From: Methanothrix sp.
Lineage (GTDB): Archaea; Halobacteriota; Methanosarcinia; Methanotrichales; Methanotrichaceae
Assembly: GCF_030055635.1 (NCBI RefSeq)
Contig: NZ_JASFYM010000004.1
Span: forward strand, 42,541-106,540
Direction: 5' to 3'
Length of the DNA stretch: 64,000 nucleotides
Of the stretch, positions 44,644 through 48,809 are shown in pieces. The notes below the pieces were generated by a model. It was given only the letters and a program-made list of their open reading frames with translations, ran no database searches and was not told where the DNA came from. A program made the position numbers and the translations under genes. The first letter of the stretch is position 1; the number at the start of each line of letters is the position of its first letter.

Positions 44644-44880
44644 ATAATGGTAATTGTAGTAGTCAAGAAACTGATATTCTATAAGTAGAAACTGAATCTG
44701 CATTATATCGCGCGTATTTTTGGCCTGACCAGAATAAGTGAGAATAGATCTTAAGGGTGGTATAACTCCAGATTATGAAGTCGCTGCAGATCGCGCAAAT
44801 GGATCGATAAGACCACCTTCGGATGGCCAGGAGGCCTCTGCGAAGAGAGCAGATCGAAGCTCTGAAACTCCACTTCAGAG

Positions 44881-44997
44881 TGCTGTGTTGGATAATTCAT
44901 GAAAATCCGCAAGCAGAAGACGATTTCAGGAATGCATGGAGAATAGACCGGAATCGATATCTGGAGACGTCATCACGGGAGGTTATCCAACACAGCA
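44881..44997 (+). mobile_element. 117-bp MITE-like element, copy 2
   Basis: Ends are the perfect 15-bp inverted repeat TGCTGTGTTGGATAA. It is flanked by CTTCAGAG on both sides (44873-44880 and 44998-45005), an exact 8-bp target duplication. Same orientation as copy 1. Confidence 0.93.
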
Positions 44998-45234
44998 CTT
45001 CAGAGCGAAGGTCGAAAGATCCGAACAAGCACGCATTAGGCGTCCATTCCTGGGCAGGATCTCCAGGAATCTGTGGCCGTCCCATAGCTGCATAAGCGAT
45101 CGGCTGCAGCAGCCGTGCTCACTTTCGATCGCATAGTCCGCATGCGACCTGTAGAGGGTGGCTGTTTTGAGACAGTCTGCTCTCATCCAGCCAGCTGAGC
45201 TCCTCTACAGAGATCTCCTGCAAAACACTCAAAC

Positions 45235-45249
45235 GATATTAATATATCT
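45235..45249 (+). promoter_or_regulatory. TATA box of the crystallin-like gene
   Basis: GATATTAATATATCT; the expected start is near 45268, leaving a ~57-nt leader that ends with GGAGAGGGGTGAT before the ATG at 45325. Confidence 0.5.
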
Positions 45250-45324
45250 TCGATCGAAATATCTCTCCGGAAAATGTATTACGGAATAAAAAAAGAAATT
45301 CTTTAGGAGAGGGGTGATAATAAT

Positions 45325-45741
45325 ATGAGAAACAAAATATTGCTTGCTTTCTGCGTGGCAGTCCTGATCGGACTTTTGTGCGTCAGCGCGCAGCGGAACA
45401 TAATGATGCCAGGCGGCTTTGGTCCCGGCGTATCCGACCTTCAGAGCGTGGTGGCAGGCGCCGGCGCAGCCGGCACAGGCGGTCCCTCGGAGGCTGTGCT
45501 CTTCGCGGAGGCAAACCAGAGAGGCACACACAAGCACGTATTCGAGGCTGACGCTGATGTGAGAGCAGATGGCGCATTCAATGCCACGCCTCGATCAATT
45601 GTCGTACTGAGCGGCGTCTGGCGTCTTTACAGAGATCCGAACTTCCAGAGACCGTATGACATGGAGTTCGGGCCCGGTATCTATCCATCGATCTTGGACT
45701 ACGGCATAAACGAGATCGGCTCCATGAAGAGGCTCCGCTAA
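45325..45741 (+). CDS. Secreted beta-gamma crystallin-like protein (M-crystallin relative)
   Basis: 138 residues. Signal peptide at 1-22 (LLAFCVAVLIGLLCVSA-Q). After a Gly-rich linker the last ~85 residues match the two Greek-key motifs of M-crystallin from Methanosarcina: EAVLFAEANQRG...SIVVLSG, then WRLYRDPNFQRPYDMEFGPG and YPSILDYGINEIGSMKRL. The Ca2+ signature N/D-N/D-x-x-S/T-S is degenerate in both (NATPRS and INEIGS), so calcium binding may be weak or lost. A strong SD precedes the ATG. Convergent with the ABC permease gene, overlapping by 4 nt. Confidence 0.82.
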   Translation: MRNKILLAFCVAVLIGLLCVSAQRNIMMPGGFGPGVSDLQSVVAGAGAAGTGGPSEAVLFAEANQRGTHKHVFEADADVRADGAFNATPRSIVVLSGVWRLYRDPNFQRPYDMEFGPGIYPSILDYGINEIGSMKRLR

Positions 45742-48430: not shown

Positions 48431-48809
48431 CTATCAAAATGATTCTGATCCTGTCCACCCAGATCATTCAAGGAGATTCTGCGGGGCTCATGCGGTCACA
48501 TCGTCGGAGAGACGAACTCTGATAACACCAATCAACGGCAATGTGCTCCTTTCTGCGAGATCACCGATCCGCTGCTGTGTTGGATAACCTCCCGTGATGA
48601 CGTCTCAAGATATCGATTCTGATCTATTATCCATGCATTCCTGAAATCGTCTTCTGCTTGCGTATTTTCATGACTTATCCAACACAGCACGATCCGCCGG
48701 ATCACCGGGATGAGACTTCCCCGACTAAATGCTCCACTGGAGACTCCAAGACGCTTATCGATCTGCCCAAAGACAGACGCGGCCGGTGGCGTGAGGGTGG
48801 CAGCCAGAT
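48382..48809. other. Intergenic region between fdhD and rps7
   Basis: Two convergent genes end here (fdhD and rps7). It holds hairpin copy 6 and MITE copy 3. Nothing else was recognised in 48431-48564 or 48698-48809. It is the right border of the segment that separates rps7 from fusA. Confidence 0.7.
48573..48689 (-). mobile_element. 117-bp MITE-like element, copy 3
   Basis: Opposite orientation to copies 1 and 2. Perfect TGCTGTGTTGGATAA inverted ends. Flanked by CGATCCGC on both sides (48565-48572 and 48690-48697), an exact 8-bp target duplication. About 120 bp downstream of the rps7 stop. Confidence 0.93.

Follow-up and report, generated by a model that had tools for sequence, protein, structure and literature searches.

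The closest solved relative of the protein described here is found in PDB entry 5HT7, which has three chains and the title 'transition-metal-ion-binding betagamma-crystallin from Methanosaeta thermophila'; this protein, from Methanothrix (Methanosaeta) thermoacetophila, was named Methallin. In the study of 2017, the affinity of Methallin for Fe, Ni, Co or Zn was reportedly nanomolar; each protomer is said to contribute two histidines to an octahedral site of six in the middle of a trimer, which dissociates in the absence of metal. The title of this work, as it appears in the reference list of PMC9425029, is 'A transition metal-binding, trimeric βγ-crystallin...' (Srivastava et al., 2017, Biochemistry 56:1299). 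Another archaeal representative, M-crystallin from Methanosarcina acetivorans (2K1W/3HZ2), is a single domain of two Greek keys that binds two calcium ions with Kd values of about 30 and 200 μM (PMC3984160).

In the window, i.e. the whole stretch of 64,000 nucleotides of Methanothrix sp. DNA analysed here, the ORF at positions 45325..45741 (+ strand, stop codon included) encodes a protein of 138 amino acids. This protein matches the Pfam Crystall family (PF00030) over residues 58-136 (E=6.7e-8; 33 bits for a curated cut-off of 25) and 5HT7 over residues 57-137 (E=1.1e-42), with about 82% identity in the domain and, for the complete Methallin, 83-84% over the full length. The H-x-H motif, the broken calcium sites and the gene neighbourhood (see below) are all common to Methallin and to the window protein, which comes from another species. 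A single copy is present in each of the six genomes of the genus (that of the window included), and the five other orthologs share 84-93% full-length identity with the window protein, the one from G005 being letter-identical to 5HT7 over residues 57-138. The pooled dN/dS is about 0.15 across the six species (0.14 in the crystallin domain), indicating purifying selection. No relative was detected in the viral contigs and phages that we searched.

The conservation extends into a promoter and 5′ leader of about 105 bp (45219..45324, +), which is nearly identical in the six species and beyond which the similarity stops sharply further upstream. This region includes a TATA-like promoter core (AAACGATATTAATATATC; 45231..45248, +), identical in all six species, and, within the leader, a Shine-Dalgarno sequence (GGGGTGAT; 45311-45318, +); a Rfam search of the upstream region detected no RNA element. 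The crystallin gene follows those encoding NusA, rpS12/rpS7 and an ABC exporter and precedes those encoding a DUF1699 protein, TIM and a peptidyl-prolyl isomerase (some of these names were assigned by reading the translations). The same order is present in the four other genomes in which this stretch is complete (G002-G005) and in the comparable part of G001. Purifying selection, the conserved promoter and Shine-Dalgarno sequence and the synteny therefore indicate that the ORF is not due to chance and is a maintained gene. With 5HT7 as its closest solved relative, a single copy and synteny, its product is a Methallin ortholog from a thermophilic Methanothrix. The finding is thus real and largely known, since it adds a new ortholog to an already published and solved protein; what had been a published oddity of one species is now seen in six species of a single thermophilic Methanothrix genus.

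The genomic context gave no indication of a link to metal supply. Allowing up to two mismatches, the promoter element AAACGATATTAATATATC matches only once in the genome, so that no metal regulon could be found, and nothing in the neighbourhood (the DUF1699 gene, the ABC-2 exporter, FdhD and the ribosomal genes) points to metal uptake. We also noticed a MITE-like element of 118 bp with inverted ends (GTGCTGTGTTGGATAA...TTATCCAACACAGCAC), present at window positions 44880-44997 and 48573-48690; these two copies are inverted, 95% alike, and flank the block formed by the Methallin, ABC and FdhD genes. Genome-wide, this element has 27 matches with 81-100% identity.

The βγ-crystallin domain corresponds to residues 56-138 (45490..45738, +). 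AlphaFold2, run on the domain only with 16 diverse relatives as rows, produced a model with a mean pLDDT of 90.0 and a pTM of 0.80, whereas the full-length protein with six near-identical rows only reached a mean pLDDT of 41. The best Foldseek match of the domain model was 5ht7_A (TM 0.92/0.94, rmsd 1.0 Å), followed by vertebrate and Ciona crystallins, and M-crystallin (3hz2) was matched with a TM of 0.81. The predicted structure thus shows a crystallin fold, a single domain with two Greek keys that matches βγ-crystallin domains at TM 0.8-0.94, as anticipated by the original prediction, which had proposed a structure model as a check for the two Greek keys. That prediction had been built on a close match to M-crystallin: the order and spacing of the motifs do agree, but the similarity is weak (E=0.0013, about 29% identity) and the much closer 5HT7 had been missed.

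The first 22 residues of the window protein (MRNKILLAFCVAVLIGLLCVSA followed by Q; 45325..45390, +) form a predicted signal peptide whose cleavage site is putative. Considering the usual traits of Sec signals (a charged n-region, a hydrophobic core and an A-x-A-like end), the hydropathy (3.16 on the Kyte-Doolittle scale over the 15 residues from 5 to 19) and the conservation of this N-terminus in all six orthologs are in keeping with a Sec-type signal peptide, through which the protein would be exported; no lipobox was seen in residues 1-22. The search for similar secreted forms in other Methanothrix, also proposed with the original prediction, found the short secreted form in 6/6 genomes of the genus, that of the window included. 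The supposed contrast with an M-crystallin devoid of signal peptide turned out to be wrong: G200 encodes an M-crystallin with a domain identical to 2K1W/3HZ2, in which MGKEIFGIVRKVLYVLLLIFFAMSATAGTVNA precedes AEVIVYEH; NAAEV, with which the PDB constructs start, lies at the predicted cleavage point of the full-length product. M-crystallin thus resembles the window protein in its single two-Greek-key domain and its signal-peptide-like N-terminus, and differs from it in lacking both the H-x-H motif and the N-terminal segment described below. An extracytoplasmic crystallin cannot be called unusual for a methanogen either, because every stand-alone crystallin that was found in the class (in Methanosarcina, in the genus of the window and in G010) starts with a signal-peptide-like segment. 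Judging from these N-termini, the stand-alone archaeal crystallins of this analysis would as a rule be exported.

The putative metal ligands lie in the motif H69-K70-H71 (45529..45537, +), with the two histidines of each protomer on the same face of strand 2; in the model, they alternate on one strand (model residues 12-19, with histidines at 15 and 17). H69 and H71 are the sole histidines of the window protein and of each ortholog and are invariant in 6/6, and the H-x-H is present at the same position in 5HT7 and in the two crystallins of G010. The predicted mature protein contains no cysteine. Alignments show that both N/D-N/D-x-x-S/T-S calcium motifs are degenerate, in agreement with the original prediction: NATPRS replaces NDKISS at site 1 (45580..45597, +), and NEIGS, two residues shorter, replaces PDNSISS at site 2 (45709..45723, +). 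Both motifs are broken in all six orthologs, with NATPRS, NVTPRS or NATPGS at site 1 and a two-residue deletion leaving NEIGS or similar at site 2. The window protein thus has the H-x-H pair and the lack of canonical calcium sites typical of Methallin, and not the two intact sites of the M-crystallin type. The combination of broken calcium motifs and an invariant H-x-H in six species therefore suggests that the calcium sites were lost in connection with a different metal site and not by simple decay. In the lineage of the window protein, calcium binding was probably replaced by another metal site, and binding of calcium by the protein itself is not expected.

Taken as a whole, these data are very probably best explained by a Methallin of thermophilic Methanothrix that is exported, forms a histidine trimer locked by a metal and has lost its calcium sites. 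Fold, orthology, conservation of the histidines, loss of the calcium motifs, selection and synteny come from the present analysis; trimer and metal binding are taken from the published ortholog, and we infer the export, the identity of the metal in vivo and the role. The 138-aa precursor would be exported through its Sec-type signal peptide, and in the mature protein a flexible Gly/Ala linker would connect a conserved segment at the N-terminus to a single βγ-crystallin domain. Three such domains would assemble around a single transition-metal ion (Ni, Fe, Co or Zn) on their three-fold axis, each contributing H69 and H71 to the six histidines that enclose it, and metal binding would be coupled to trimer formation, as in the ortholog. 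An acetate-splitting methanogen requires large amounts of nickel and iron. By analogy with Methallin, the protein is most likely an extracytoplasmic metal-locked trimer binding nickel, iron or a similar ion; outside the cell it would most likely hold or buffer nickel or iron, or else the metal may serve a surface protein as structural clip. The main text of the Methanothrix DIET transcriptome paper makes no mention of a crystallin.

The second of these roles, in which the metal would be a structural clip only, in a trimeric Methallin associated with the surface or the sheath, with the trimer as assembly unit and residues 23-40 carrying the function, is a possibility to which we give less credit, even if it bears on the role alone and agrees with the fold and the metal site proposed above. 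A proteinaceous sheath surrounds Methanothrix cells (PMC11576556), and the segment of residues 23-40 (QRNIMMPGGFGPGVSDLQ, also given as QRNIMMPGGFGPGVSD; 45391..45444, +) is joined to the domain by a flexible Gly/Ala-rich linker (residues 41-55; 45445..45489, +) in which 8/15 columns vary, with indels, and which the original prediction had already recognized as Gly-rich. Both are encoded, like the signal peptide, by the full gene in both species and are absent from 5HT7, a bare domain of 83 aa, so that the published crystal structure omitted a conserved, presumably exported tail. In the six species, only 2/18 columns vary in residues 23-40 (dN/dS 0.04) versus 25/83 in the crystallin domain. 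The segment is at least as constrained as the domain; the difference is not significant (Fisher p=0.14) and the stronger claim that the segment is more constrained is unsupported, which weakens the case for a functional tail. Likewise, no partner was identified, the segment has no other copy in the genome of the window, and a search of the class outside the genus gave nothing above noise, the matches being the orthologs plus weak noise.

Returning to the metal-binding trimer, the initial idea of a secreted M-crystallin with decayed calcium sites, a stable structural domain devoid of metal function, can draw on the two altered motifs and on the alignment of the domain with M-crystallin, but is very improbable in view of an H-x-H that does not vary within the genus and holds the only histidines of the protein, of an ortholog solved as a transition-metal-binding protein and of the low dN/dS of the domain. 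The term 'decayed' was therefore misleading, and the histidine site had been overlooked.

The crystallins of G010, a member of another genus of the same family, are informative about the order of events. This genome encodes two secreted proteins of 123 aa (L025:2698-3066, -; L060:1501-1869, -) that are 91% alike and, like the window protein, consist of a single domain with GAHKH at the Methallin position. They differ from it by their low identity (36-38%), their two copies, the absence of the N-terminal segment and the retention of an intact calcium site 1 (NDQISS) along with a partial site 2. This coexistence of NDQISS and HKH could suggest that Methallin too binds calcium weakly through site remnants, beside the transition metal, but such residual binding is hardly credible for the window protein, whose site 1 has lost Asp and Ser and whose site 2 has lost two residues. 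In phylogenetic trees from which the HKH columns had been removed, the G010 proteins cluster with Methallin and away from those of Methanosarcina (support 94/97 with all rows and 97/97 without the long fusion proteins; these trees are unrooted, based on 81 columns and contain long branches). The HKH beside an intact calcium motif and this grouping suggest that the histidine site arose before the calcium motifs were lost. One may tentatively extend this to a scenario, rather unlikely to hold in all its parts, in which a secreted calcium-binding crystallin of Methanotrichaceae gained a histidine transition-metal site (the G010 state, possibly with both metals) and then lost its calcium sites in the genus of the window, and in which the trimer, locked by its metal, serves as a nickel or iron store outside the cytoplasm, anchored to the cell surface by an N-terminal segment specific to the lineage. 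With these older-looking relatives from G010, the successive steps by which a crystallin changed its metal can be traced and tested.

In the class as a whole, PF00030 matches are present in 14/238 genomes; the family has the short secreted form in the genus of the window (6/6) and in G010 (two copies). Other architectures were also observed. In G211 (L018:1402-1995, +), M-crystallin is duplicated in tandem in one secreted protein with two nearly identical domains. A large protein with tandem βγ-crystallin repeats in its N-terminal part, and no assignment for the rest of its long sequence, is encoded by a genome of the Methanosarcina family (L031:1-3051, -). Finally, proteins of 822 and 873 aa (L023:927-3392, -; L024:293-2911, -), from two genomes that belong to a different genus in the family of the window, contain RicinB-lectin-like and fascin-like domains together with a βγ-crystallin repeat domain and carry a long tail rich in Cys, Ala and Gly (CGGDACGA repeats).
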